DNA of 64,000 nt from Archivesica marissinica. Lineage: Eukaryota > Mollusca > Bivalvia > Venerida > Vesicomyidae. Of this stretch, positions 46,528-64,000 are shown piece by piece. A program made the position numbers and the translations under genes. The first letter of the stretch is position 1. Each line of letters opens with the position of its first letter. The DNA lies in assembly GCA_014843695.1 (NCBI GenBank), contig CM026400.1, positions 45,608,638-45,672,637 of the forward strand, written 5' to 3'. The notes beneath the pieces were generated by a model. That model did not search any database, had not been told where the DNA came from, and saw only the letters and a list, made by a program, of their open reading frames with translations.

Positions 46528-46746
46528 AAAAACAAAATTCACAACAATCATATTCATGGCAGAACCCTAACCCTAGACAGGGGGGGGGGGTTGTCCGTAT
46601 CCCAACATGGACATTTAGCAGCATGGCTGATGTATGCATTCTAATGTTGTTTCTGTTTGTGTTGATTTTGGAGAAATGTTTCATGACCTTGAGGTCTACA
46701 AGTTAAATAAACTTAAATAATAAAAAATACTTTGCATACATGTAAG

Positions 46747-46909
46747 TCACACATGCTCGCTTCTCACCAATGCAACCCTGGTTCAATCCTCGGACCGGGA
46801 AGTATGTGAGATGGTACGGTTGTCGCCAGATCGGACAGGTGGGTTTTCTCCGGGTACTCCGGTTTCCTCCCACATGATTGACCACATATATGCTTTCATC
46901 CGTGCCAAC
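46747..46909 (+). mobile_element. SINE family 3, left half (interrupted by a LINE)
   Basis: Head and body as at 29297, stopping at 'atccgtgccaac'. The right half resumes at 49552. Confidence 0.92.
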
Positions 46910-49551
46910 ATTGTGATTCATTTGAACCTTGAGAAGGACGGGAGGAAGTTGTGGAGGCTCACGAAACAGCTAAATGATGAAGAAAATAGCAGACAGAAAA
47001 TCACGTTGGATGAGGATGGGAAACTGTTGACCGGCAAAGAGACTGCAGACTGTCTCGTCAAAGCCTACCAGAAAGAGGGCAACATCAAAGTCACACGCCA
47101 ACAGCAAAGAGAGGCACGGAAAGAACAGAAGGATAGAAGTAAAAGACATACGGAACAAGACTCCATGAAACTTCCACTTACATACCAGGAACTGTACACA
47201 GCGCTCAGACAACTGAAGAAGAGAAAGTCACCAGGACCTGATGGAATCTCCAATGAGATGCTAACTCATCTTGAATGCTCAGCCATGCTGAAACTTCTTG
47301 ACATCTTCAATATTAGCTGGGAAGAAGGCATAGTTCCGCAGATCTGGAAGGAAGCCACCGTTATCCCAATCTACAAGAACGGCAAGGATAGAAAGAAAGC
47401 TTCCAGCTATCGCCCTATTAGTCTCACTTGCTGTGTGATCAAGACAATGGAGAGGATAGTTAACAAGAGACTCATGTGGTACCTTGAGACAGAAAACCTC
47501 CTATCCAAGGAACAAGCAGGATTCCGACAGTTCAGATGCACAGAGGACCAGGCAACATACCTCGCTCAGGAAGTGGAGGATGCATTCCAAGGCCAGAAGG
47601 TAGTTTTTGCAACCTGGATAGACCTCCAGAAGGCTTTTGACAAAGTCTGGACTGATGGGCTGCTGGTCAAGATGCAACGATGCGGAATTGCCGACAATAT
47701 GCTCCGATGGACCAAATCCTTCCTACACAATCGCAGAGCCAGAGTACTTGTTGACAACCAGAAGAGCAAGAAATTCCTCATCCGACACGGTGTTCCTCAA
47801 GGAGGAGTGATCTCGCCTACGCTGTTCCTCATCTTCATCGATGACTTGCTTGCAGAGCTGCCACATGGTATCAAAGCAGCACTCTATGCTGACGACTTGG
47901 TTATGTGGTGTGTTGAAGAACATGCAACGACTGCCACATACAGAATGCAGATGGCCGCAGACAAGCTCACAGCATGGGCAGAAGACTGGTGCATCTCTAT
48001 TAATAAGGAGAAGTCGTCAACCACACTCTTCACACTTTCCACCAAACAGAAAGCTGGAACCATCAAAGTCGGAACTGCCTTGAAGACGGACAACGAGCCA
48101 ACATACTTGGGGGTGACATTTGACAGACGGCAGACATGGAAGCCACATATCCAGAAAGCAGAGGCCAAAGCCAAGCGCAAGCTTGCAATCCTTTGGAAGC
48201 TTGCTGGCACCACATGGGGTGCCAATGATCACATCTTGAAGACTATTTACCAATGTGTGGTCAGGCCTCACCTGGAATATGGATCCACCGCCTGGACAAC
48301 ATCAGCCAAGATCAACCAACAGACACTTGACAAGGTTCAGAACAAGGCTCTCAGGCTGATCACAGGTACAATGAAGAGCACTCCAATCAAGGCCATGGAG
48401 AAAATTACTTTCATCCAGCCACTGCAAGAACGTCGCGACACAAGAATTCTTCTACAGACAGAGAAGTTTCGATGTCAGGAAGAACAACCGATGAAGCAGA
48501 GAGTTGAGGCACTAACGAAGAATCGTCTAAAGCGAAGCAGTTTCATCCACCAGTCCAAGCAGCTTGCTCGAAAGCACACCAGCCATCTCCCAGCCAAGAC
48601 ATTGCCTCCAACGCCATTTCTATCCAAGCCATGGTTGACTAGCGATGAATCCAAGGTTACCATCTGCAGTACAATCCCATACATGACATCCAGAGATAGA
48701 CAACATGATGACGTCAAATGTGCCCTCACACTAGCACACATCGACAAGAGTTATCCTGGAGAAGCATGGATACAAGTCTACACAGATGGTTCAGCCACAA
48801 AAGCAGTAGCAAACGGAGGAGCAGGAGTGTATGTCCGACACCCAGATGGACACACACAGTCAGTTGCTCTACCTACTGGAGTACACTGCAGCAACTATTG
48901 GGCAGAAGTACAGGCCCTTGAAACAGCAGCATCTCTAGTACACAACACTGTGGAGTGTGCCCAGGTTGTCTTCCTGACTGATGCGCTCTCAGTTCTGGAT
49001 GCCCTGTCTAACAACAAAGAACCCCACCTGATGGAAGTCCTTCGAACAATCAGCGTAACTGAAAGAACTGTCCTCCAGTGGGTACCTGCACACATAGGCA
49101 TCCCTGGCAATGAAGCCGCTGACCAGCTTGCCAAGCAAGGTTCTACCGAGAGGCAACCAGACAAAGATTTGACTTACAAGGAGAAATGCACCATAATCAA
49201 ATCTGCATCAAAGCCAACAGTCGAGAAGGATGACTACCACCTTCTCACCAGACAGGAGCAAGTCACGATATTCCGGCTTAGAACAGGGCATAACCGCCTG
49301 AACTTCCATTCCATATGTGTCGGAAGCTTGGATTAGCTCCATCAACTGCCTGCAGCTGCAACGTAGGGGACCAGACTGCAGAACACATCCTCCAGGAGTG
49401 TCCCAATCTTCATGGGCTGAGGAAAACAACCTGGCCAACAGATACTTCTCTCCAGACGAAGTTACATGGCTGCCGGGAGGATCTGAGGAGGACGGCCCAT
49501 TTCGTGTTTGCTGCCGGCTTGTCCATGTGATTCGCGAACGACAAGAAGAAG
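46910..49551 (+). pseudogene. I/Nimb-like LINE with reverse transcriptase and RNase H, 5'-truncated
   Basis: One frame stays open to the stop at 49336 and encodes a reverse transcriptase (LKKRKSPGPDGISNEML near 47215, HGVPQGGVISPTLF near 47785, catalytic ALYADDLVMW near 47885) and then RNase H (QVYTDGSA near 48775, WAEVQALETAASL near 48900, WVPAHIGIPGNEAADQLAK near 49080). A one-base frameshift near 49310 separates the final zinc-knuckle segment (CSCNVGDQTAEHILQECP). The endonuclease is missing. The open frame starts inside SINE sequence, so its first Met is not the element's own. RNase H after the reverse transcriptase points to the I group. It ends in aagaag. The target duplication atccgtgccaac (46898-46909 and 49552-49563) proves insertion into the SINE. 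Confidence 0.93.
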
Positions 49552-49627: not shown

Positions 49628-49684
49628 ACTTAAGGGACCCAACCACTTGACTGTTTTATAAAATACATAATTTTTGTTTTTCAG

Positions 49685-52600
49685 TTGCACACAACCATTT
49701 TTATCTAAGAATAGAGTGTGAAAATCACACTGCTTTGGAAAGTGTACTCTAAGAATGGATTGTGATGAGAATGTCAGTAAGAGAGACAACAAGCTGACAG
49801 ACTTTAACATTCACAGGAAGATTTTTGTGGGAAATATCAGTTACAGAGTAAGTCTCAACTCAATTAATATCAGTTACAGAGTAAGTCTCAACTCAATTAA
49901 TATCAGTTACAGAGTAAGTCTCAACTCAAATAATATCAGTTACAGAGTAAGTCTCAGCTCAATTAATATCAGTTACAGAGTAAATCTCAACTCAAATAAT
50001 ATCAGTTACAGAGTAAGTCTCAACTCAATTAATATCAGTTACAGAGTAAGTCTCAGCTCAATTAATATCAGTTACAGAGTAAGTCTCAACTCAATATCAG
50101 TTACAGAGTAAGTCTCAGCTCAATTAATATCAGTTACAGAGTAAGTCTCAACTCAGATAATATCTGTTACAGAGTAAGTCTCAACTCAATTAATATCAGT
50201 TACAGAGCAAGTCTCAACTCAATATCAGTTACAGAGCAAGTCTCAACTCAATATCAGTTACAGAGTATGTCTCAACTCAATTAATATCAGTTACAGAGTA
50301 TGTCTCAACTCAATTAATATCAGTTACAGGGTAAGTCTCAACTCAATTAATATCAGTTACAGAGTAAGTCTCAACTCAATTAATATCAGTTACAGAGTAA
50401 GTCTCAGCTCAATTAATATCAGTTACAGAGTATGTCTCAACTCAAATAACATCAGTTACAGAGTATGTCTCAACTCAAATAACATCAGTTACAGAGTATG
50501 TCTCAACTCAAATAACATCAGTTACAGAGTAAGTCTCAACTTAGATAATATCAGTTACAGAGTAAGTCTCAACTCAAATAACATCAGTTACAGAGTAAGT
50601 CTCAACTTAGATAATATCAGTTACAGAGTAAGTCTCAACTCAAATAATATCAGTTACAGAGTAAGTCTCAACTCAATTAATATCAGTTACAGAGCAAGTC
50701 TCAACTCAATTAATATCAGTTACAGAGTAAGTCTCAACTCAATATCAGTGCATGGCAGTTACTTGGTGTTGAATGGGTTAATATGATGCACCAGTGCATG
50801 GCAGTTACTTGGTGTTGAATGGGTGCACCAGTGCATGGCAGTTACTTAGTGTTGAATGGGTGCACCAGTCCATGTCAGTTACTTGGTGTTGAATGGGTGC
50901 ACCAGTCCATGTCAGTTACTTGGTGTTGAATGGGTGCACCAGTCCATGTCAGTTACTAGGTGTTGATTGGGTGCACCAGTCCATGTCAGTTACTTGGTGT
51001 TGATTGGGTGCACCAGTCCATATCAGTTACTTAGTGTATTTCATCCTGACTTTCACTTGTATGATGCTTTCTTCAGGTCAAGTCCAGGAAGTTGTCACGG
51101 TTCTTCAGTAAGTTTGGACCGGTTGAGTACTGCTATATTGTTAAAGACCATATCAAGAAATGGTCCCGCGGGTATGTTTTCCTGTCTTGTTTCACATTTT
51201 ATGAATATGAGTTGTGTCGGTTGAATCGGCAAATTAATTTTTAATAACATTTTGTTCACTTAAACATTTTCTATGTGGCGCATCTTAAACTCTGAGCTTA
51301 ACTGTCTTACAGACCGTAAGCTGGACATTCAAAATTGTGAGAAGCTTGTGGTATTCAAGGGAGAATTGTGTTGTATACAAGGGAGAACTTTGTGGTATTC
51401 AAGGGAGAAGTTTGTTGTATACACCAGGAGAAGTCTGTAATATACATGGGAGAAGATTTTGTATATCAGCTAGAGTTAGTTGTATACATGGGAGAAGTTG
51501 GTGATACACAAGGGAGAAGTTTGGGGTATACAAGGGAGAAGTTTGTGGTATACAAGGGAGAAGTTTGTTGTATACAAGGGAGACGTTTGTGGTATACAAG
51601 GGAGAAGTTTATGGTGTACAAGGGATAAGTTTGTGGTATTCAAGGAAAAAGTTTATGGTATACAATGGAGAAGTTTGTGGTATTCAAGGGAGAGGTTTGT
51701 GGTATTCAAGGGAGAAAGCGAGAAGTTTGTGGTATTCAATGGAGAAGTTTGGGGTATACAAGGGAGAAGTTTGTGGTATTCAAGGGATACGTTTATGGTA
51801 TATAATGGAGAAGTTTGTGGTATACAAGGGAGACGTTTGTGGTATACAAGGGAGACGTTTATGGTATACAATGGAGAAGTTTGTGGTATTCAAGGGAGAG
51901 GTTTGTGGTATTCAAGGGAGAAAGGGAGAAATTTGTGGTAGGTATTCAATGGAGAAGTTTGGGGTATACAAGGGAGAAGTTTGTGGTATACAAGGGAGAA
52001 GTTTGTTGTATACAAGGGAGAAGTTTGTTGTATACAATGGAGACGTTTGTGGTATTCAAGGGAGAAATCTGTAATATACAAGGGAGAAATCTGTAATATA
52101 CAAGGGTGGCATACAGTAGTTTTTGGGCTTAAATTAGGGAGAAGTTTCAGACAAGAGTTCTCAATCTATGCTATGGTTAAATGATTCTTCTTGGGCTTAA
52201 GATAGGAAGAATTGAGAAAGCCGAGCAATGACTTACCCTTTGCATGCTAGCGGCAGATAAACTCATTTTTGCAAACAGCTTAGAGCCAGATTAGAGAGCG
52301 ACTGTGCTGTTTGCTATTCGGATAGTGGAGATAAAACACTTGGGTGAATAGCAAACAACATAGATCCCGTTACGCCGCCCACTGCTGATCTGGATCTATG
52401 TTGTTTGCAAATGTGATTTTATTTACTCAGCAAGCAATGGGAGGGTTAAAAATGCACTTTTGTCAATGCTTTGCTTAACCCTTTCAACACCACAGACCTC
52501 TAAATTGGCTTACAAAAAAGTGTAGATCCAGATGAGCCGGCTCGTGACGAGCCGTCTCATCAGGATCTGCACTTTTTTCAAGTAATATAACTATTTTTAG

Positions 52601-55600
52601 AAACAAAATTACCCATTTTGATAAATGAACTGATCCAAATGTAATTTTGTTATTAATTTATTGGTCTAAAAATATCATGGACCAGTCCATGTCAGTTACT
52701 TGGTGTTGAATGGGTTAAGACCCGTTTTCAAAAATAGCATGTCTTCCGTAAAGCGTTATCGAAATAAATTTTATAGGAATATCATGGGCAGTTTTAGTCA
52801 TGTGCCAACTTTTATGTAATTCTGCAAATTACAAATGTGCAAATATCACACCCATATTTATAGCCTCATCAATCACAGTTTTGCATCGTTGAACCCAAAC
52901 CCCCGTTTCAGTCGATCGTTTTGTGGAAATCTGTGCAACGAAACAGTTCTACCGTCCACAACTTTACCACGATATATTCCTTTGCATATGCAACAATATT
53001 TCTATGACCGTTTCTTTCCTCTATCAGTATTTATTATGTAAATTTAAGCAAAAGTTGGCTAGCCCAGCCTGTTAGTTTGTGAATATTGAAAGCAGAATAG
53101 TAGTCCCCGGAAGTTGCGGGTACCTCTTCGCACATGCACACTTGCCACAATGGGAGATAATTCGCAAGGGAGACTACCTATTTTCGGGAAAGGCCTATAG
53201 GTGCTGCGTTGTTCGGTGTATATATGTAAGGAAAAGTTAGTGCAATTTGTGTGATATATATATATATATGAAGATGATGTGTGAGTACCTCATGCCTGAT
53301 TCAGGATTGCATTTGTGACATTTGGAGACGAGGAATCTATGCATAAAGCTCTCCAAGCATCGGAAGATGACCTCTACTTCGATCAGAGGTATATTCCTGA
53401 AATCTTTTGAATATTATTCATTTATTGCCTAACTACATGTTCCAAACCTCAACTTCGATCAGAGGTATCCCTGAACTATTTTGACTATTATTGAGAAGTT
53501 ATTATTTCTTATTTGGCAGCCCTAGCCGACCCATGTAGCCCTAGCCAACCATGTAGCCCTAGCCAACCCATATAGCCCTAGCCAACCCATGCAGCCCTAG
53601 CCAACCCATGTAGCCCTAGCCAAACCATGTAGCCCCAGCCGACCCATATAGCCCTAGTCAACCCATGTAGCCCTAGTCGACCCATGTACATGTAGCCCTA
53701 GCCAACCCATGTAGCCCTAGCCGACCCATGTAGTCCTAGCCGACCCATGTAGCCCTAGCCAACCCGTGTAGCCCTAGCCGGCCCATGTAGCCCTAGCCGA
53801 ACCATGTAGTCCTAGCCAACCCATGTAGCCCTAGCCAACCCATGTAGCCCTAGCCAACCCATGTAGCCCTAGCCAACCCATGCAGCCCTAGCCAACCCAT
53901 GTAGCCCTAGCCAACCCATGTAGTCCTAGCCAACCCATGTAGCCCTAGCCAACCCATGTAGCTCTAGCCAACCCATGTAGTCCTAGCCAACCCATGTAGT
54001 CCTAGCCAACCCATGTAGCCCTAGCCAACCCATGTAGCTCTAGCCAACCCATGTAGTCCTAGCCAACCCATGTAGTCCTAGCCAACCCATGTAGCCCTAG
54101 CCAACCCATGTAGTCCTAGCCAACCCATGCAGTCCTAGCCAGCCCTAGCCAACCCATGTAGTCCTTGCCAACCCATGTAGTCCTTGCCAACCCATGCAGC
54201 CCTAGCCAACCCATGCTGCCCTAGCCAACCCATGTAGCCCTAGCCAGCCCATGTAGCCCTAGCCGACCCATGTACATGTAGCCCTAGCCAACCCATGTAG
54301 CCCTAGCCAACCCATGTAGTCCTCTAGCCAACCCATGTAGCTCTGGCCAACCCATGTAGTCCTAGCCAGCCCATGTAGTCCTAACCAACCCATGTAGTCC
54401 TAGCCAACCCATGCAGTCCTAGCCAACCCATGTAGTCCTTGCCAACCCATGTAGTCCTTGCCAACCCATGCAGCCTTAGCCAACCCATGCTGCCCTAGCC
54501 AACCCATGTAGCCCTAGCCAGCCCATGCTGCCCTAGCCAACCCATGTAGCCCTAGCCAGCCCATGTAGCCCTAGCCGACCCATGTACATGTAGCCCTAGC
54601 CACCCATGTAGCCCTAGCCGACCCATGTAGCCCTAGCCAGCCCGTGTAGCCCTAGCCAGCCCGTGTAGCCCTAGCCAGCCCGTGTAGCCCTAGCCAGCCC
54701 GTGTAGCCCTAGCCAGCCCGTGTAGCCCTAGCCACCTGTAGCCCTAGCCGCCCGTGTAGCCCTGGCTGGTAGCCCTAGCCAGCCCGTGTAGCCCTAGCCA
54801 ACCCGTGTAGCCCTAGCCAGCCCGTGTAGCCCTAGCCAGCCCGTGTAGCCCTAGCCGACCCATGTAGCCCTAGCCGACCCATGTAGCCCTAGCCAACCCA
54901 TGTAGCCCTAGCCAGCCCGTGTAGCCCTAGCCAGCCCATGTAGTCCTAGCCGACCCATGTAGCCCTAGCCGGCCCATGTAGCCCTAGCCAACCCATGTAG
55001 CCCTAGCCAGCCCATGTAGCCCTAGCCAACCCATGTAGCCCTAGCCGACCCATGTAGTCCTAGCCAACCCATGTAGCCCTAGCCAGCCCATGTAGCCCTA
55101 GCCGACCCATGTAGCCCTAGCCAGCCCATGTAGCCCTAGCCAGCCCATGTAGTCCTAGCCAGCCCATGTAGCCCTAACCGACCTATGTAGTCCTAGCCAG
55201 CCCATGTAGCCCTAGCCAGCCCATGTAGTCCTAACCAGCCCATGTAGTCCTAACCAGCTCATGTAGTCCTAGTCAGCCCATGTAGCCCTAGCCAGCCCAT
55301 GTAGCCCTAGCCAGCCCATGTAGCCCTAGCCAGCCCATGTAGCCCTAGCCAGCCCATGTAGTCCTAGCCGACCCATGTAGTCCTAGCCAGCCCATGTGGT
55401 CAACCAGTGCTAAATAGTGTGTTTGGCTTATGAAGATTGTATGCATGTCGTTACCCAGTATCGAGCACAGTGCATCTCTATCTGAAATTGGATGCTCTAC
55501 CACTACACTATAGATACCGTACAACGGCAATAACCACTGTGGATTCTACAAACTTAGAAATTCTTAGTTTGGGGGAAATAATCACCCTTAGCTACCTCAT

Positions 55601-58600
55601 GTCTCCCTATACATGTACTTACCTCACGGATGATGATTTCTTTTAATGAAAAAGTTGGCAGTTTCTTACGGAGGTTGGTGCACCAAGTACTGGTTAACCG
55701 CTGGAGCCTGCTCAGGAAAGGTGTTGTTAGTAAACTGCCCACTGGCGATATAGCCCAAAATGGTGCTGATGCAGGCGTAAAACCCAAACAAACATTTATT
55801 AGACAGATGAGGGTGAAACCGGCAGAGCTTTCTACGAAGGCTACCTACTGGCAAGACCGTCCACCAACTGATGATGATGATGATGACAGTGGTGATGAGG
55901 AAGTCATGGAAGAGAATTTCAAATTAGACCATACCCCTGAGGATACTGTAAATATCTGCATAGTATTCACTTAGGGGAGGGGGGGTGTTCATATTGCAGT
56001 TTTCATGAAAAACTTTTTGAGACACTTGCCCGAAGGCTTGAAAAATTTACTTGCCCGAATGAACTTCTAGGTGCCCATATATTTGCAGAATTTTACCCGC
56101 TTATTGGCGGTTAAATGTATAGTAGTATATGTAGCATAATGTGGCATATCATGCATTTATTAGTAATACTTATAATATGGCCATATGAGTAAACAATGTA
56201 TAAAGACAAACTAATGTTTTATTATTATTAATATTTTACGATTGTTCAATCATTGCGACTGGAAGCTACGTTTTCTTTTTGCTTCATACTCTGTTTTTGA
56301 TGACGCCTGTCATTCAGATGGCCGTGTCTTCCCCGGCTTTGCGCCCTCGACATATCGCAAGAAACCCGACATGTTTCCATGCAGTTGTTTTCATTTGTTA
56401 ACAGGAAATGACCTAAGCAGTATCGGATCGTTTCGCCCTAATTCCCGTTCGCACCGGGTTGTTTCGCCATAAACATAGATATCGGGCAGAATGTGTGAAA
56501 ATAGTCTGGAGGTGGGTCGTTTCACCCCAGAATTATAGATTTCGTACTGAGCGACACGACGCGTGATTTTTTTAAAACAAATTTGATGATATAATGCATC
56601 GATCGGCCGAGATGTCAGTAAGCAAAAACGCGAATTTACACCTGTCCGCTCTAGACGACTTTCAATTCCGGTGTAAACAATTCGTAATTGTAAAGAATTT
56701 AGAAAAACATTTCTACTGTCCAGTTTATTACAGGGGCCTCCGTGGTCTAAAGCGCTGGCTGTGAGATCACTAACCTCTCACCGCGGTGGTTCGAGTCCCG
56801 GGTAAAACCCCAATTAATAAATAAAACAAATTAATAAAAAAAAAACAGGTGCCCGTCGGGCATGTGAGATTGCAAAATTTACACGTCCGTCCCGATTTCT
56901 ACACGTCTCGGGCATCGGGCACCCGGATAATTTCGCAGACTGATATTGTATATTTTCACTGTTGACGATTGTAAAGTTGGTAGTTGTTGTGGCATTCCTT
57001 ATGTATTATTAGTTTAAGCACATTCTTTTTAGCTTGATTGCGAAACAAGTTTTCACAATATTACCGTAGTTTAATCACTATTGAGACCTCTCATTCCTGA
57101 TGTAATCTATCGCTATGACGGAGAGAGAAGAGGCAATGTGGAGTTAGGTGCACAAGGACACCACCATTGTGGTTGTGACAGGGCTCAAACTCGTAGCCTC
57201 CTGGTTTAAATTTTTAATAACGATTATATTAATCACTCTCGTTGGGTCGTATGAAAGCATATATGTGGTCATTTGTGTGGGAGGAAACCGGAGTACCCAG
57301 AGAAAACTCACATTTCCGATCTGGCGATCACCGTACCATCTCACATAGTTCCCGGTCCGAGGGTTTTCTTGGTATTCCCGAGTCGCAGTGTGTTATAAAC
57401 AATCTGTTTATGAGATTTTCTTCTTGTTTTTTTAGGAACACCCGGATTCTCCGTGTCCGGTAAACAGTGTATTTGATGATGTGCTGTTGCGGATATTCAC
57501 CCTGCTCTCCTGGAAGGAACGTATGGCGATAGAGCGTGTCTGCTGGCGATGGAAACACCTCGTACAGAGAACATGGGTCTCCCAGAAACATCTGCACTTC
57601 CAAAATATATTTAGACAGTTTCAAGGTATTTTTGTTTTTACTGCCAATTAAATGTAATTTGACTGGAATTGCTTTGGCATTGCTTTACACGCCACACATT
57701 CTAGGTCAGAATTTTTGGGAGAAGTGAGAAAGCGCGTGATGTCGTGGAAGTCGTGATAGCGCAGTGGATGCGCGTTCGCTTCAGGTGCGAAAGGTCCGGA
57801 GTTCGAGCCCCACTGGAGCCGTTACGATTGTGCCCTTAGGCAAGGCATTTAAATTCCACGTTGCCTCTTCTCTCTCCCTCGTGGCGATGGATTCCATCAG
57901 GGATGAGGTCTCGAGAGTGATTTATATAAGTTGAAATAACTTGTTTCGCAATCGAGCTAAAATAAATTTGTATAAACTAAAGCGCGTGATCGCGTCCTTT
58001 AATGGTGTTCTTTAATATACTTCTGCAAAATAGGGTTAAAATGCACAGTACAACCATTAAATACAACATTTGAATAGACGGAGTGCTTTATAATGGGCCA
58101 GTGTATCTTACTAGACAAAATTTTGTTTGGAAATCGTAAAAACCAAAAAAAAGGGAGACTTTTAGGGAGACTTTTTTTAGGGAGAAGTGGGGCCCCCAGA
58201 GGGCGAAGTCAGGGTCCCTAGGGCGACAATTTCGCCCACATCGCCTTCTAGAATGATCCCTGCCACATGGTTGCATTTTACCCATGTACTGTATTTACCT
58301 GTTTAGGAGGCCATGTGTAGTTACCGTGTACCCAGGTATTTTACAATTGTGAAGATTGTGTGCATGATATGCGAGGATAGTGGTAAGCTATTTAACCCTT
58401 TCAACACCACAGACCTCTAAATAGGCTTACAAAAAGTGTAGATCCAGATGAGCCGGCTCGTGACGAGCCGTCTCATTAGGATCTGCACTTTTTGCCAGTA
58501 ATGTTATTATTTTCAGACAAAATTACCCATTTTGATAAATGAACCGGTCCAAATGTAATTTTCTTAATAATTTATTGATCTAAAAATATCATGTACCAGT

Positions 58601-61600
58601 ACATGTCAGTTACTTGGTGTTGAATGGGTTAACTATCAGTCCATGATCATACAGTGCCAAGTAGTTATGTGGGTGAGCAAAGTGGTTAATCTAAAGGGTG
58701 CGGTGCGTCATAAAACCCCAACCTAAAATATACAGTCGTGATAGCGCCTTTGATTCAGGCAGGAAAGGTCCAGAGTTCGTGCCCCGCTGGAGCCGTTACG
58801 ATTGTGCCCTTAGACAAGGCATTTACATTCCGCACTGCCTCTTCTCTCTCCCTTGTGGCGATGTATTCCATCAGGAATGAGATCTCGAGAGTGATTAATA
58901 TAAGTCGTAAGAACTTGTTTCGCAATTGAGCTGAAATAAATTTGTATAAACTAAGACATACATGTACATTTAAATGATAGCGTGGGGCTTAACGAAAACC
59001 AATTTATCTGCCCTGATCTATATACACATAGAACATTTTCGTACTACAAGTAAAACCACAAACACTAGTATAAAACCAGGGGGATATAAATGTCTATATT
59101 GCAATATATTTATAGGGATTTTCTAGAGCGGAATGGCAGGGTACACCATCCTGCCCTTTATAGCCCCATCCCTTTGCCCATTAGCCCCGCCCCATTTACC
59201 CATTAGCCCCGCCCCTTTACCCCCGCTCCTTTACCCATTAGCCCCGCCCCCTTTACCCCTTAGTCCTGCCCCTTTACCCATTAGCCCCGCTCCTTTACCC
59301 ATTAGCCCCGCTCATTTACCCATTAGCCCGGCCACGTTTCCCATTAGTCCCACCCTGTTACCCATTAGCCCCACCCCTTTACCCATTAGCCCCACCCCTT
59401 TACCCATTAGCCCCACCCCTTTACCCATTAGCCCCACCCTCCTGCATTTGTTTTAGAACTTGTCCACCCTTTTCACCAATATGTACTGCCTTACTGCCTC
59501 TTTCATCAATCACCGTAATTTAGCAAAATGTTCTCTGGGCTAACCCCAAAATACCCCCTCCCGCACAATATCGCTGCTCAAAATGCACCCTACCCCTTTT
59601 CTGACCCACCCTGCCCTTTTCTGACACCCTGTGATTTTTCTGATCCACCTACCCTTTTTCTGACCCACCCTACCATTTACTGACCCACCCTACCCTTTTC
59701 TGACCCACCCTGCCATTTTTCTGACCCACCCTGCCATTTTTCTGACCCACCCTGTCCTTTTTCTGACCCACCTTGTCCTTTTTCTGACCCACCCTGTCCT
59801 TTTTCTGACCAACCCTGCCATTTTTCTGACCCACCCTGCCCTTTTTCTGACCCACCCTGCCATTTTTCTGATCCACCCTGCCCTTTTTCCACTCTAGAAT
59901 AAACCCTATATTTAGCTGTTTATCCTCCATCCAGGTCTGAGCGACAAGATGTTAAACTCTCTTCTTCTGAGATGTGGACAATACTTGGAATCTCTCGATT
60001 TATCAGCATCGCCCAGATTTCTCACAGACTTTTCCATGGATATCATAGGTAAAGGTTTGTAACCCTGCCTCCCTCAGAGGTATGGCAGGACTTAGCTCTA
60101 ATCTGTACTCTCTGCATAGCATGTGGAGTCACAGGGTTCCCTCTGTCTGAATTTTTGTCTGCACAACTTCTGTCACCTATTGAAAAAAACTGGAGTCAAC
60201 TTGAAAATCTTGGAGGCAACTAAGAGCCATATAGTTTACAGATAATTATTTGTAGCCATGTATTTGACAAAACATGTGCCCCCCCCCCCCCCCCCCCCCA
60301 AAGATTGCGGCACAAATTTTCGTCAATTCACAAAATGTAGCACCAGTATTTGATTTTTGTCGCTGACAGCGGGAACCCTGAGTCTGCTTAATGGTAACGT
60401 AGACATATACATAGTTTATTAAATTTCAGTTAGGCTTTCAAGCCCATGAGGACATACATACATATTAATTATTTACAGTTAGCGAACATAATGCATACAT
60501 TATATACAAATCAATGTGAGCTCCCACAATCATAGCCATGTATATTTATTTCTATGTGTAAATACATGTAATATTTATCGGATATGTGTCTTATGAGTAA
60601 AGCAAAACAGTTCTTTATTTCTAACACGGAGAAGGTCAAAAGACGCAACAAAAACAAACATACAAAATTTGTAAGTTGTAACATATATTGAAAGTTGTTA
60701 ATTAATATCAAAATGTAATTGTGCCTACACTTGTGTAAATGTTGCAAACTTGTATAACATGGCCGATCAGTAAACCCCTCGATCAGTAAACCCTTCTATC
60801 GGTAACCCCTTCCATCAGTAAACCCTTCTATCGGTAACCCTTCCATCAGTAAACCCTTCTATCGGTAAACCCTTCCATCAGTAAAGCTTGCGATCGGTAA
60901 CCCCTTCCATCAGTAAACCCTTCCATCAGTAAACCCTTCCATCAGTAAACCCTTCAATCAGTAAACCCTTCCATCAGTAAAGCATGCGATCGGTAAACCC
61001 TTCCATCGGTAAACCCTTCTATCGGTAAACCCTTCCATCAGTAAAGCCTTCCATCAGTAAACCCTTCCATCAGTAAACCCTTCCATCAGTAAACCCTTCC
61101 ATCAGTAAATCCTTCCATCAGTAAACCCTTCCATCAGTAAACCCTTCCATCAGTAAACCCTTCCATCAGTAAACCCTTCCATCGGTAAACCCTTCCATCG
61201 GTAAACCCTTCCATCAGTAAACCCTTCCATCAGTAAACCCTTCCATCGGTAAACCCTTCCATCGGTAAACCCTTCCATCAGTAAATCCTTCCATCAGTAA
61301 ACCCTTCCATCAGTAAACCCTTCCATCAGTAAACCCTTCCATCGGTAAACCCTTCCATCAGTAAACCCTTCCATCAGTAAACCCTTCCACCTGTAAACCC
61401 TTCTATCAGTAAACCCTTCCATCAGTAAACCCTTCCACCTGTAAACCCTTCCAGCAGTAAACCCTTCCATCAGTAAACCCTTCCATCAGTAAAGCCTTCC
61501 ATCAGTAAAGCCTTCCATCAGTAAAGCCTGCGATCGGTAAACCCTTCCATCTGTAAACCCTTCTATCGGTAAACCCTTCCATCAGTAAACCCTTCCATCA

Positions 61601-64000
61601 GTAAACCCTTCCATCAGTAAACCCTTCCACCTGTAAACCCTTCTATCAGTAAACCCTTCAATCAGTAAACCCTTCAATCAGTAAACCCTTCCATCAGTAA
61701 ACCCTTCCATCAGTAAACCCTTCCATCAGTAAACCCTTCCATCAGTAAACCCTTCCATCGGTAAACCCTTCCATCAGTAAAGCCTGCGATCGGTAAACCC
61801 TTCCATCAGTAAACCCTTCCATCAGTAAACCCTTCCATCAGTAAAGCCTTCCATCGGTAACCCCTTCCATCAGTAAACCCTTCCATCAGTAAACCCTTCC
61901 ATCAGTAAACCCTTCCATCAGTAAACCCTTCCATCGGTAAACCCTTCCATCAGTAAACCATTCCATCAGTAAAGCCTTCCATCAGTAAAGCCTGCGATCG
62001 GTAAACCCTTCCATCTGTAAACCCTTCTATCGGTAAACCCTTCCATCAGTAAACCCTTCCATCAGTAAACCCTTCCACCTGTAAACCCTTCCATCAGTAA
62101 ACCCTTCCATCGGTAAACCCTTCCATCAGTAAACCCTTCCATCAGTAAACCCTTCCACCTGTAAACCCTTCTATCAGTAAACCCTTCCATCAGTAAACCC
62201 TTCCACCTGTAAACCCTTCCAGCAGTAAACCCTTCCATCAGTAAACCCTTCCATCAGTAAAGCCTTCCATCAGTAAAGCCTTCCATCAGTAAAGCCTGCG
62301 ATCGGTAAACCCTTCCATCTGTAAACCCTTCTATCGGTAAACCCTTCCATCAGTAAACCCTTCCATCAGTAAACCCTTCCATCAGTAAACCCTTCCACCT
62401 GTAAACCCTTCTATCAGTAAACCCTTCAATCAGTAAACCCTTCAATCAGTAAACCCTTCCATCAGTAAACCCTTCCATCAGTAAACCCTTCCATCAGTAA
62501 ACCCTTCCATCAGTAAACCCTTCCATCGGTAAACCCTTCTATCGGTAAACCCTTCCATCAGTAAAGCCTGCGATCGGTAAACCCTTCCATCAGTAAACCC
62601 TTCCATCAGTAAACCCTTCCATCAGTAAAGCCTTCCATCGGTAACCCCTTCCATCAGTAACCCTTCCATCAGTAAACCCTTCCATCAGTAAACCCTTCCA
62701 TCAGTAAACCCTTCCATCGGTAAACCCTTCCATCAGTAAACCATTCCATCAGTAAAGCCTTCCATCAGTAAAGCCTGCGATCGGTAAACCCTTCCATCTG
62801 TAAACCCTTCTATCGGTAAACCCTTCCATCAGTAAACCCTTCCATCAGTAAACCCTTCCACCTGTAAACCCTTCTATCAGTAAACCCTTCAATCAGTAAA
62901 CCCTTCCATCAGTAAACCCTTCCATCAGTAAACCCTTCCATCAGTAAACCCTTCCATCAGTAAACCCTCATCAGTAAACCCTTCCACGTAAACCCTTCCA
63001 TCGGTAAACCTTCTATCGGTAAACCCTTCCATCAGTAAAGCCTGCGATCGGTAAACCCTCCATCAGTAAACCTTCCATCAGTAAACCCTTCCATCAGTAA
63101 AGCCTTCCATCAGTAAACCCTTCCATCAGTAAACCCTTCCATCAGTAAACCCTTCCATCAGTAAACCCTTCCATCAGTAAACCCTTCCATCGGTAAACCT
63201 TCCATCAGTAAACCCTTCCATCAGTAAACCCTTCCATCAGTAAACCCTTCAATCAGTAAACTCTTCAATCAGTAAACCCTTCTATCGGTAAACCCTTCCA
63301 TCGGTAAACCCTTCCATCAGTAAACCCTGCGATTGGTAAACCCTTCCATCAGTAAACCCTTCCATCAGTAAACCATTCCATCAGTAAACCCTTCCATCAG
63401 TAAACCCTTCGTATATACAGGGAAGTACTGCCCGGATATCCGGGAGCTGGATATTTCTGCCGTGAAGATAACGGACGTCTCCGTGAGAAACCTCGTCTCC
63501 AGGTGTACAAACTTGCACAAAGTCAAGTTGAAACGATGCCTCCATGTTACAGATAATGGGTATGTTCGTCTGTCTGTGTGTGTTTGTTGTCCGTCTGTCT
63601 GTGTGTGTTGTCCGTCTGTCTGTGTGTGTTGTCCGTCTGTCTGTGTGTGTTGTCCGTCTGTCTGTGTGTGTTGTCCGTCTGTCTGTGTTTGTGTCATAAT
63701 TGATTTAATTGGGTGTATGATCAGTTTCATGGTGGTATGTTTGTTGCAAGGCGCACATATGATTTATTTCATGATAAATATGATTGATTTTGTGATAAAT
63801 ATGATTGATTTTGTGATAAATATGATTGATTTCATGATAAATATGATTGATTTTGTGATAAATATGATTGATTTTGTGATAAATTGATTTCATGATAAAT
63901 ATGATTTGTTTCATGATAAATATGATAGATTTCATGATAAATATGATTGATTTCATGATAAATATGGTTGATTTCATGATAAATATGATATATTTCATGA
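49685..64000 (+). CDS. RRM / F-box / leucine-rich-repeat protein (EEED8.10-like), 5' part, seven coding exons, runs off the right edge
   Basis: Exons: 49755-49847, 51077-51171, 53305-53388, 55803-55947, 57436-57625, 59935-60048 and 63421-63559. They join in phase (0, 2, 2, 0, 1, 1) to 286 codons plus two bases. Domains: RRM at residues 21-97 (RNP2 KIFVGN, RNP1 RGIAFVTF, last strand RQMRVKPA), an acidic linker with six Asp (114-119), F-box at about 147-185 (NSVFDDVLLRIFTLLSWKER, CWRWKHLV), then LRRs (YLESLDLSAS, IRELDISAVKITD, LHKVKLKRCLHVTDNG). F-boxes bind Skp1 in SCF ubiquitin ligases and LRRs choose substrates; the RRM suggests RNA binding. From memory the same order occurs in C. elegans EEED8.10. 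The start is the first ATG after an in-frame TGA (49719-49721), A at -3 and G at +4; an acceptor ending at 49684 implies a 5' non-coding exon. The C-terminal LRRs lie outside the window. Confidence 0.9.
49755..49847 (+). CDS. RRM/F-box/LRR gene, coding exon 1
   Basis: 31 codons ending in RKIFVGNISYR, the first RRM strand (RNP2). The donor AGA|GTAAGT at 49848 is also the first repeat of the 33-bp array. Exon 2 continues as VKSRKLSRFFSKFG, exactly as an RRM helix 1 should, so the first donor is the canonical one. Confidence 0.92.
49833..50745. repeat. 33-bp array made of the exon 1 end plus its splice donor
   Basis: The unit aatatcagttacaga|gtaagtctcaactcaatt contains the last 15 coding bases of exon 1 and the donor. 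About 28 copies; most keep GTAAGT, several have GTATGT, three have GCAAGT and one has GTAAAT. The first nine donors are spaced in multiples of 33, so they are in one frame without a stop. A 29-bp unit near 50090 then shifts the frame and a stop follows at 50109-50111. Confidence 0.97.
50746..51040. repeat. Array of about 37 bp units derived from a MITE family 1 end
   Basis: Seven or eight copies of 'gcaccagtccatgtcag' plus 'ttacttggtgttgaatggg', which equals the right end of MITE family 1 (compare 52677-52714). It follows the 33-bp array directly. Confidence 0.93.
51077..51171 (+). CDS. RRM/F-box/LRR gene, coding exon 2
   Basis: Acceptor tgctttcttcag, donor GTATGT. Encodes VKSRKLSRFFSKFGPVEYCY and IVKDHIKKWSR: RRM helix 1, strand 2 and the loop before RNP1. 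Ends in phase 2. Confidence 0.93.
51346..52110. repeat. Minisatellite, 22 bp unit, in intron 2
   Basis: About 34 copies of aagtttgtggtatacaaggg plus ag, with variants (ttgttg, attcaa, agacg). It contains duplicated blocks, e.g. around 51650-51730 and 51860-51950. Confidence 0.96.
52232..52449. mobile_element. TTAA-type MITE, family 2
   Basis: Left end ttaccctttgcatgctag (one A lost), right end gcaagcaatgggagggttaa, inner inverted 'tttgcaaacagcttagagcc' and 'tagatc-gatctatgttgtttgc'. Confidence 0.82.
52475..52718. mobile_element. TTAA-flanked MITE, family 1, full length
   Basis: TTAACCCTTTCAACACCACAG to gttacttggtgttgaatggg then TTAA. Almost identical to the copy at 16469-16712. Confidence 0.95.
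52719..53304. other. Rest of intron 2, no feature recognised
   Basis: AT-rich unique sequence with a short (TA)n run near 53255. The acceptor catgcctgattcag ends it. Confidence 0.45.
53305..53388 (+). CDS. RRM/F-box/LRR gene, coding exon 3
   Basis: Encodes IAFVTFGDEESMHKALQAS and EDDLYFDQ, completing RNP1 (RGIAFVTF) with the split Gly. The donor GTATAT is weak, and a second copy of this exon end and donor lies 76 bases downstream. Confidence 0.93.
53371..53500. repeat. 76-bp tandem duplication of the exon 3 end and splice donor
   Basis: cctctacttcgatcagaggtat at 53371 recurs as cctcaacttcgatcagaggtat at 53447, each followed by a diverged 'cctgaa-tattttga-tattatt'. Use of the second donor would add 76 bases and reach a TGA. 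Confidence 0.92.
53515..55390. repeat. Satellite, 19 bp unit, in intron 3
   Basis: Nearly 100 copies of agccctagccaacccatgt with gacc, aacc and agcc variants in blocks, plus occasional 'acatgtac' insertions. At its right edge it passes without a break into SINE family 4 sequence. Confidence 0.97.
55391..55515 (-). mobile_element. SINE family 4 fragment
   Basis: 'ggtcaaccagtgctaaatagtg', 'ccagtatcgagcacag' and 'ggatgctctaccactaca' match 33723-33928 inverted. The array to the left occupies the place of 'catgcttagccgacc'. Confidence 0.8.
55648..55790 (+). mobile_element. SINE family 6 (body only) abutting exon 4
   Basis: 'ggcagtttcttacggaggttggtgc' (start) to 'gcaggcgtaaaacccaaac' (end), as at 46393-46527 and 1-22. 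Only 12 bases separate its end from the exon 4 boundary. Confidence 0.82.
55803..55947 (+). CDS. RRM/F-box/LRR gene, coding exon 4
   Basis: Acceptor aacatttattag, weak in pyrimidines. Encodes QMRVKPAELSTKATYW (RRM end), then PPTDDDDDDSGDEEVMEE, an acidic linker, and KLDHTPEDT. Donor ACT|GTAAAT, phase 0. Confidence 0.9.
55948..56731. other. Intron 4, mostly unannotated
   Basis: 'cttgcccgaaggcttg' and 'cttgcccgaatgaacttc' are loosely repeated near 56030. A partner region with 'ggcatcgggcacccgg' lies near 56910. Possibly ends of an unrecognised element. Confidence 0.35.
56732..56848 (+). mobile_element. SINE with tRNA-like head and A-rich tail
   Basis: ggcctccgtggtctaaagcgc (A box) and ggtggttcgagtcccggg (B box), followed by an (AATAAA)-rich tail ending in ten A. 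Single copy here. Confidence 0.75.
57027..57200 (-). mobile_element. SINE family 2, degraded
   Basis: Minus-strand tail 'ttagcttgattgcgaaacaag', body 'gagagagaagaggcaatgtgg' and a worn head. Confidence 0.78.
57213..57363 (-). mobile_element. SINE family 3 copy
   Basis: 'gtgtgggaggaaaccggag' and 'gatctggcgatcaccgtacc' inverted. Its head end lies about 70 bases upstream of exon 5. Confidence 0.88.
57436..57625 (+). CDS. RRM/F-box/LRR gene, coding exon 5 (F-box)
   Basis: Acceptor cttgtttttttag, donor GTATTT. Encodes PVNSVFDDVLLRIFTLLSW, then KERMAIERVCWRWKHLVQ and a helix to the first LRR. Has the usual F-box pattern (Leu/Ile pairs, Val-Cys-x-x-Trp) for binding Skp1. Confidence 0.94.
57692..58265. 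mobile_element. Non-autonomous hAT-like element (family 'GGGCTCATTCTAG') with nested SINE
   Basis: Left 'cacattctaggtcagaat', right 'gccttctagaatgatccctg'. The interior matches 11421-11720. The SINE at 57741-57978 interrupts it. Confidence 0.78.
57741..57978 (+). mobile_element. SINE family 2, full length
   Basis: All tRNA-like boxes and the tail are present. Perfect 12-bp target duplication aaagcgcgtgat (57729-57740 and 57979-57990). Confidence 0.96.
58392..58632. mobile_element. TTAA-flanked MITE, family 1, full length
   Basis: TTAACCCTTTCAACACCACAG to ttacttggtgttgaatggg then TTAA, with central palindrome. Confidence 0.94.
58733..58955 (+). mobile_element. SINE family 2, head partly deleted
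   Basis: 'gtcgtgatagcgc' joins directly to 'ttcaggcaggaaaggtcc', then body and tail as in other copies. Confidence 0.9.
59150..59445. repeat. Minisatellite, about 20 bp unit, in intron 5
   Basis: About 14 copies of cctttacccattagccccgc. Confidence 0.95.
59578..59890. repeat. Minisatellite, about 22 bp unit, in intron 5
   Basis: About 14 copies of ttttctgacccaccctgcc with ccttt or cattt variants. It ends 45 bases before exon 6, so its pyrimidine-rich units form the upstream part of the 3' splice region. Confidence 0.95.
59935..60048 (+). CDS. RRM/F-box/LRR gene, coding exon 6 (LRR)
   Basis: Acceptor cctccatccag, donor GTAAAG. Encodes LSDKMLNSLLLRCGQYLESL, then DLSASPRFLTDFSMDII, one FBXL-type repeat. 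Phase 1 on both sides. Confidence 0.93.
60132..60380. mobile_element. Non-autonomous hAT-like element (family 'CAGGGTTCCC') with a 21-C run
   Basis: Ends cagggttccctctgtctg and gacagcgggaaccctg. It is an inverted relative of 19207-19428. A tract of about 21 C lies at 60289-60309. Confidence 0.82.
60381..60770. other. Intron 6, no feature recognised
   Basis: AT-rich unique sequence before the 16-bp array. Confidence 0.4.
60771..63412. repeat. Satellite, 16 bp unit with a 48-unit higher-order repeat, in intron 6
   Basis: About 165 copies of catcagtaaacccttc and variants (gcctgcgatcgg, cacctg, cagcag). The variant order from about 61383 to 62050 is repeated 768-784 bases downstream (for example the rare ccagcag at 61451 and 62219, gcctgcgatcgg at 61526 and 62294). 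The array runs to within 8 bases of the exon 7 acceptor. Confidence 0.97.
63421..63559 (+). CDS. RRM/F-box/LRR gene, coding exon 7 (LRRs)
   Basis: Acceptor cgtatatacag lies directly after the 16-bp array. Encodes KYCPDIRELDISAVKITD, then VRNLVSRCTNLHKVKLKRCL and HVTDNG, two FBXL-type repeats. Donor GTATGT, phase 2. The next exon is beyond the window. Confidence 0.93.
63568..63690. repeat. Minisatellite, about 21 bp unit, beside the exon 7 donor
   Basis: Six copies of ccgtctgtctgtgtgtgttg, beginning within ten bases of the GTATGT donor. Confidence 0.95.
63755..64000. repeat. Satellite, 16-18 bp unit, continues past the window
   Basis: About 14 copies of gataaatatgattgattt with catgataa or gtgataa variants. 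Confidence 0.95.

Follow-up and report, generated by a model that had tools for sequence, protein, structure and literature searches.

A minisatellite made of splice donors is already known from the human gene IFI6 (6-16, G1P3), where it was reportedly described by Turri et al. in 1995; its unit is 12 bp long. According to the introduction of an IFI6 paper (PMC4526556), two downstream repeats of IFI6 act as donors, giving rise to three mRNAs. The array described here, from the clam Archivesica marissinica, can by analogy be assigned to the same kind: both minisatellites lie at an exon-intron boundary with a donor in each unit, and in the clam the array begins at the exon end, its donors have GT in 25 of 28 copies and GC in the remaining 3, and the first downstream donors (donors 2 to 8) preserve the reading frame. 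The two differ in unit length (33 bp in the clam, 12 bp in IFI6), in belonging to an unrelated gene and another phylum, and in that the use of downstream donors has been shown for IFI6 whereas the clam array is known from DNA.

Other described systems share single features with this locus. In human segmental duplications, internal tandem repeats with an average unit of about 30 bp lie at exon-intron boundaries (PMC2812944); there, as here, growth of a minisatellite across an exon boundary alters gene structure, but those repeats give rise to novel introns in recent paralogs, whereas the clam gene is single-copy and conserved, with its original junction intact. In potato RdRp, an intron arose when a segment spanning an intron-exon boundary was duplicated in tandem (PMC4974935), so that splice signals were copied by tandem duplication in both cases, but a single acceptor-side duplication made a new intron in potato, whereas in the clam there are many donor-side copies belonging to an existing intron. 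In C. elegans, the CeRep25B minisatellite lies near alternatively spliced regions (PMC4039745); it too is an intronic minisatellite tied to splicing, but by a statistical association of intronic motifs, whereas the clam donor array is built from a junction. The available portions of reports on earthworm metallothionein intron repeats (PMC12783039), DDX3Y (PMC3039753) and the hard-clam genome (PMC7831173) contained no closer parallel.

The window, that is, the whole stretch of 64,000 nucleotides analyzed, is C15:45608638-45672637 (contig CM026400.1) in an assembly comprising 1.54 Gb in 2,808 contigs. Seven exons at 49755-63559 belong to a gene for an EEED8.10-like RRM/F-box/LRR protein, with the domains in that order and full-length homology; several homologs bear the name of C. 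elegans EEED8.10. The closest homologs among the matches listed were those of Mercenaria mercenaria, 78% identical, and of Ruditapes philippinarum, 74% identical, which aligned over 96-98% of the query. The features of the locus are as follows.

49755..49847, + strand, coding exon 1; 31 codons ending in ...KIFVGNISYR, open from the ATG to the donor and aligned with homologs
49833..50743, + strand, junction minisatellite found by TRF; 28 donor copies, 33-bp unit (three units of 29 bp), GTAAGTCTCAACTCAATTAATATCAGTTACAGA
49848..49853, + strand, donor 1 (GTAAGT); read as the ancestral donor from the homolog alignment
49881..50084, + strand, donors 2-8; the exon would end at bases 49880 to 50078, frame kept, +11 to +77 residues
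50108..50732, + strand, donors 9-28; donor 9 frame-shifted, donors 10-28 past a stop at 50109
50787..51037, + strand, second intron 1 array with a 37-bp unit; matches the 3' end of a dispersed element at 52676-52718 and 58590-58631
51077..51171, + strand, exon 2 (VKSRKLSRFFSKFGPVEYCYIVKDHIKKWSRG)
53305..53388, + strand, exon 3 (end of the RRM)
55803..55947, + strand, exon 4 (linker); start set by homologs
57436..57625, + strand, exon 5 (F-box)
59935..60048, + strand, exon 6 (LRR)
63421..63559, + strand, exon 7 (LRR); the gene runs on past the window

A start of exon 4 at 55662, which adds 47 residues, was ruled out by the homologs. The Pfam scan was run on a gene model that still held these surplus residues, and in that model RRM_1 was matched at 1.9e-16 and the F-box and LRR stayed under their cut-offs. 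The 30 kb that follow the window yielded none of the gene's remaining exons. Exon 1 is likely preceded by an acceptor ending at 49684 (TTTTTGTTTTTCAG).

An earlier note on this DNA had proposed that a minisatellite of about 28 copies was built from the exon-intron junction, each 33-bp unit holding the last 15 coding bases of exon 1 (NISYR) and the donor, and both statements were borne out. TRF returned a single array, scoring 1500, that spans 49833-50743 in 28.0 copies of period 33, and the unit listing gave 27 complete units and 28 donor copies. The unit consists of the last 15 coding bases of exon 1 and the first 18 bases of intron 1, and the exon tail (AATATCAGTTACAGA) is an exact match to the array copy. 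These 15 bases of exon 1 are at the same time the first exon-derived copy of the array. Units 8, 12 and 13 are 29 bp long and the rest 33 bp; together with the second, 37-bp array, the junction array makes up 93% of intron 1. When the whole 1.54-Gb assembly was searched, exon 1 with the array was found in one place, the sole further match (72%) being to an unrelated array on C6. This match runs over repeated frames and belongs to another array, with a 40-bp unit; kinship between the two arrays was rejected and the likeness put down to chance. The C6 array itself (L009:1010-3165, about 55 copies) has a first copy that reads as a coding exon end including a stop codon. The predicted RNA structure of 49755-50200 turned out to be nothing unusual (-71.7 kcal/mol, against -75.4 +/- 5.2 in 50 shuffles). 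Recursive splice sites with a zero-length exon were also considered and rejected, because one base separates TTACAG from GTAAGT in the window units and AG is therefore not directly before GT; CAG/GTAAGT is present in some other arrays, unlike the window units.

The 28 donor copies comprise 19 GTAAGT, 5 GTATGT, 1 GTAAAT and 3 GCAAGT. Donors 1 to 8 are open and in register, so that the in-frame addition of residues foreseen in the earlier note holds for donors 2 to 8; the count of in-frame donors is eight and not nine as had been stated, the 29-bp spacing between donors 8 and 9 putting donor 9 out of frame. The loss of frame that had been placed after a 29-bp unit near 50090 was thus found at donor 9, but it is not lasting: register is regained from donor 14 onward, and it is the stops at 50109, 50142 and 50175 that block all donors from the tenth on. 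Altogether, 20 of the 28 donors lead to a frame shift or a stop, 19 of them lying downstream of a stop. A simple duplex calculation gave -8.8 kcal/mol for the pairing of donor 1 with the U1 5' end, a stronger value than for any of the gene's six other donors (-1.6 to -7.8 kcal/mol), and it was equaled or surpassed by only 1.0% of the 3,522 other GT sites in the window, so that donor 1 is predicted to be strong.

We then asked which donor the protein family reflects, using 38 homologs out of the 120 among the matches listed, 37 of them with a full RRM. None of the 38 had extra residues at the NISYR junction, which argues that donor 1 is the ancestral donor, the one that makes the family protein, in agreement with the view of the earlier note that it is the normal one. 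Nor were repeat-encoded residues, as in a coding VNTR, present at the junction in these 38. A bryozoan homolog (P0035) has one extra residue, one position beyond the junction. A Mytilus gene model (P0031), which is without the following exon, leaves the family directly after NISYR, and this suggests that the intron position is old. Modeled with AlphaFold2 (mean pLDDT 85), the Tegillarca homolog has strand 1 at residues 13-17 and helix 1 at residues 25-32, and the junction follows residue 22; the insertion point thus falls, as had been proposed, in the loop between RRM strand 1 and helix 1, and an insert made through donors 2 to 8 would lengthen the RRM loop after RNP2.

The copies were examined for signs of selection. 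Conservation of the donor hexamer did not exceed that of the remaining intron-derived columns (9/162 versus 19/324 substituted cells, p = 1). Exon-derived columns were less substituted than the rest when counted by cell (6/405 versus 28/486, p = 0.0007), although cells share descent and are not independent; by column, the difference was not significant (3/15 versus 7/18, p = 0.28). Intact GTAAGT was commoner early in the array, in 10 of the first 11 donors versus 9 of the later 17 (p = 0.049). There was no synonymous excess among the variants, 2 of 10 variant types being synonymous versus 20 of 99 possible single changes, a share as expected. Adjacent units were more alike than distant ones (mean of 1.81 versus 2.19 differences, permutation p = 0.02), and the 27 units fell into 13 distinct types, as local duplication predicts. 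For the downstream copies, we saw no convincing sign of selection. Two nominal signals (exon-derived cells, early GTAAGT) count against a neutral reading, and constraint could explain the former.

The genome is unusually rich in minisatellites. With a period of 7-100 and at least 3 copies as the definition, 62 separate arrays were counted in 14 stretches of 10 kb taken arbitrarily from C15 and C6 (L016-L029), where minisatellites covered 0-85% of the sequence (mean, 45%). Units are mostly locus-specific, only 21 of 108 arrays sharing a unit with another, and GTRAGT is not enriched in them (4/108 arrays versus 4.9 expected from shuffles). At an array density of about 0.45 per kb, chance alone would place roughly 1.5% of splice sites within a 33-bp seed, so that an occasional array on a junction is to be expected in this genome. 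An array was found within 10 bp of 3 of the 13 splice sites of the RRM/F-box/LRR gene.

Several other repeats were seen in and around the gene. A 16-bp array (60766-63410, about 166 copies) stops 10 bp short of the exon 7 acceptor, and a second one (63563-63692) begins 3 bp after that exon; a 21-bp pyrimidine-rich array (59586-59889), ending 45 bp before the acceptor of exon 6, has in each unit a CTGAC that we take to be branch-point-like. The dispersed element (52485-52718 and 58395-58632) has similar inverted ends of the TTAACCC-TTCAACACCA type; amplification of its 3' end has given the 37-bp array in intron 1, and an array at C1:11259873 has a unit similar to that 37-bp unit. An open frame of 870 aa (46724-49336), which immediately precedes the gene and shares its strand, reads by eye as the reverse transcriptase of a non-LTR retrotransposon.

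To look for further arrays of this kind, the genome was searched with a pattern of three CAGGTAAGT at short spacing, the reversed (scrambled) pattern serving as a control. Overlapping matches numbered 1590+787 for the donor pattern and 644+969 for the control. A preference of minisatellites for donors was not read from this raw excess, because matches within one array are not independent and the separate groups show the reverse: among the matches listed (C1), there were eight donor groups in 0-55.5 Mb versus six control groups in 0-16.4 Mb. There is thus no sign that donors are over-represented in arrays, distinct donor arrays being fewer per Mb than control arrays. Edges were retrieved for all eight listed donor groups on C1. 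The 5' edge was readable in seven of the eight, the group at 27 Mb and one copy of the pair at 16.8 Mb being hidden by N, and in six of these seven (at 10.36, 16.80, 31.44, 40.63, 51.37 and 55.55 Mb) it held an apparent coding exon-donor junction with the exon tail in the unit. The further apparent junction arrays on C1 are the following.

L030, 34-bp unit
L032, 36-bp unit
L033, 20-bp unit
L037, 42-bp unit
L039, 28-bp unit
L041, 38-bp unit

The first unit of L041 is cut short, but its gapped alignment to the array unit scored 17, against a shuffle maximum of 8. Three of the six exons are supported by Pfam (Mito_carr, 2e-5; zf-C2H2, 5e-9; Na_H_Exchanger, 1.9e-16), while the exon readings of L009, L030, L032, L033 and L040 gave no Pfam match. 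In PDB, L037 had no match and the best match of L030, HMG-box BBX, was not significant (E = 0.53); L030 may be BBX-like, and L033 may resemble an acyl-CoA synthetase. About 19 kb separates L036 from L037 (C1:16.782 and 16.802 Mb), two donor arrays with a 42-bp unit that are almost identical and represent either a segmental duplication or unmerged haplotypes. With the window included, the unit was a multiple of three in three of seven junction arrays, as expected by chance, and the three 29-bp units of the window also break any such rule. The exon readings show that apparent junction arrays recur in this genome; a preference of arrays for junctions does not follow, because a search for perfect donors favors real junctions. 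In the open-license literature searched, no precedent was found for such recurrence within one genome.

We consider it probable that the locus is a near-neutral mutational array seeded by duplication of a junction, one of a recurrent class, with donor 1 as the main donor. Minisatellites, which are everywhere in this genome, would sometimes engulf an exon end; here the seed would have been a tandem duplication spanning the junction of exon 1 and intron 1, with 15 exon and 14-18 intron bases, and growth may have proceeded by local unequal exchange or replication slippage inside the intron. The transcript would then offer 28 near-identical donors. Donor 1, nearest to the upstream exon end, would be the main one by exon definition; low-level use of donors 2 to 8 would lengthen the RRM loop by 11-77 residues, and donors 9 to 28 would yield frame-shifted or prematurely stopped mRNAs, removed by nonsense-mediated decay. 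Such an array would be close to neutral, tolerated since the first copy keeps the gene intact. The older, intron-centric rule of donor choice would favor the last donor, a choice that would yield a stop and decay. In a human survey, the 5' site nearest across the exon was preferred where donors of equal strength lay in long introns (Carranza 2022, PMC9225289). Every possible intron from the donors of this array is at least 350 nt long, so that exon-centric proximity predicts use of the upstream donor. By analogy, IFI6, in which downstream repeats are used, may be a counterpoint to this reading.

It is this precedent, with its two downstream repeat donors in use (PMC4526556), that together with the open, in-frame donors 2 to 8 and the little-substituted exon-derived part (by cell count) would favor a selected isoform generator, in which several donors vary the loop between RRM strand 1 and helix 1 in 11-residue steps. 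We regard such a generator as quite unlikely: the aligned homologs are all free of an insert, the frame shift or stop follows from most of the donors, neither donor nor peptide is conserved in excess, and in only a minority of the junction arrays is the unit a multiple of three. The suggestion in the earlier note of a length-variable protein generator is therefore left without support in its selected version, the more so as 19 of 28 donors lie past a stop. An unlikely reading, too, is a putative U1 landing pad or decoy, in which the 25 GT donors would recruit U1 snRNP and so reinforce exon 1 definition, tune the speed of splicing or suppress early polyadenylation, single sites mattering little; the pairing of donor 1, at least as good as that of 99% of the other GT sites and better than that of the other donors of the gene, agrees with it, but the donor columns are no more conserved than the rest. 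That the array was collapsed, expanded or misplaced in assembly, or that exon 1 is misannotated and unused, is highly improbable. Other arrays of the assembly do border N gaps (L036, L038), but the array at issue is 0.9 kb long, varied in its units and in unbroken sequence with the seven exons of a conserved gene, and exon 1 encodes the conserved RRM strand 1.

If the near-neutral reading holds, the locus would illustrate how minisatellites can remodel exon ends through mutation. Work on the spliceosome's choice between equal donors, by nearness across the exon or across the intron, usually relies on two sites in a minigene or on natural sites that are unequal. In this gene, a single transcript would carry 28 near-identical donors and one acceptor; the conserved protein requires donor 1, and the gene is therefore a direct test of the exon-centric against the intron-centric rule. 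Other genes seem similar, with other unit lengths, and would provide repeated natural experiments. It is a doubtful but conceivable extension that junction-built minisatellites form a genome-wide class in the clam lineage, with hundreds of genes or more bearing rows of donors from their own exon ends; splicing would then have to choose the first donor systematically, and array length may serve as a heritable, rapidly mutating control of isoform ratio and mRNA decay.
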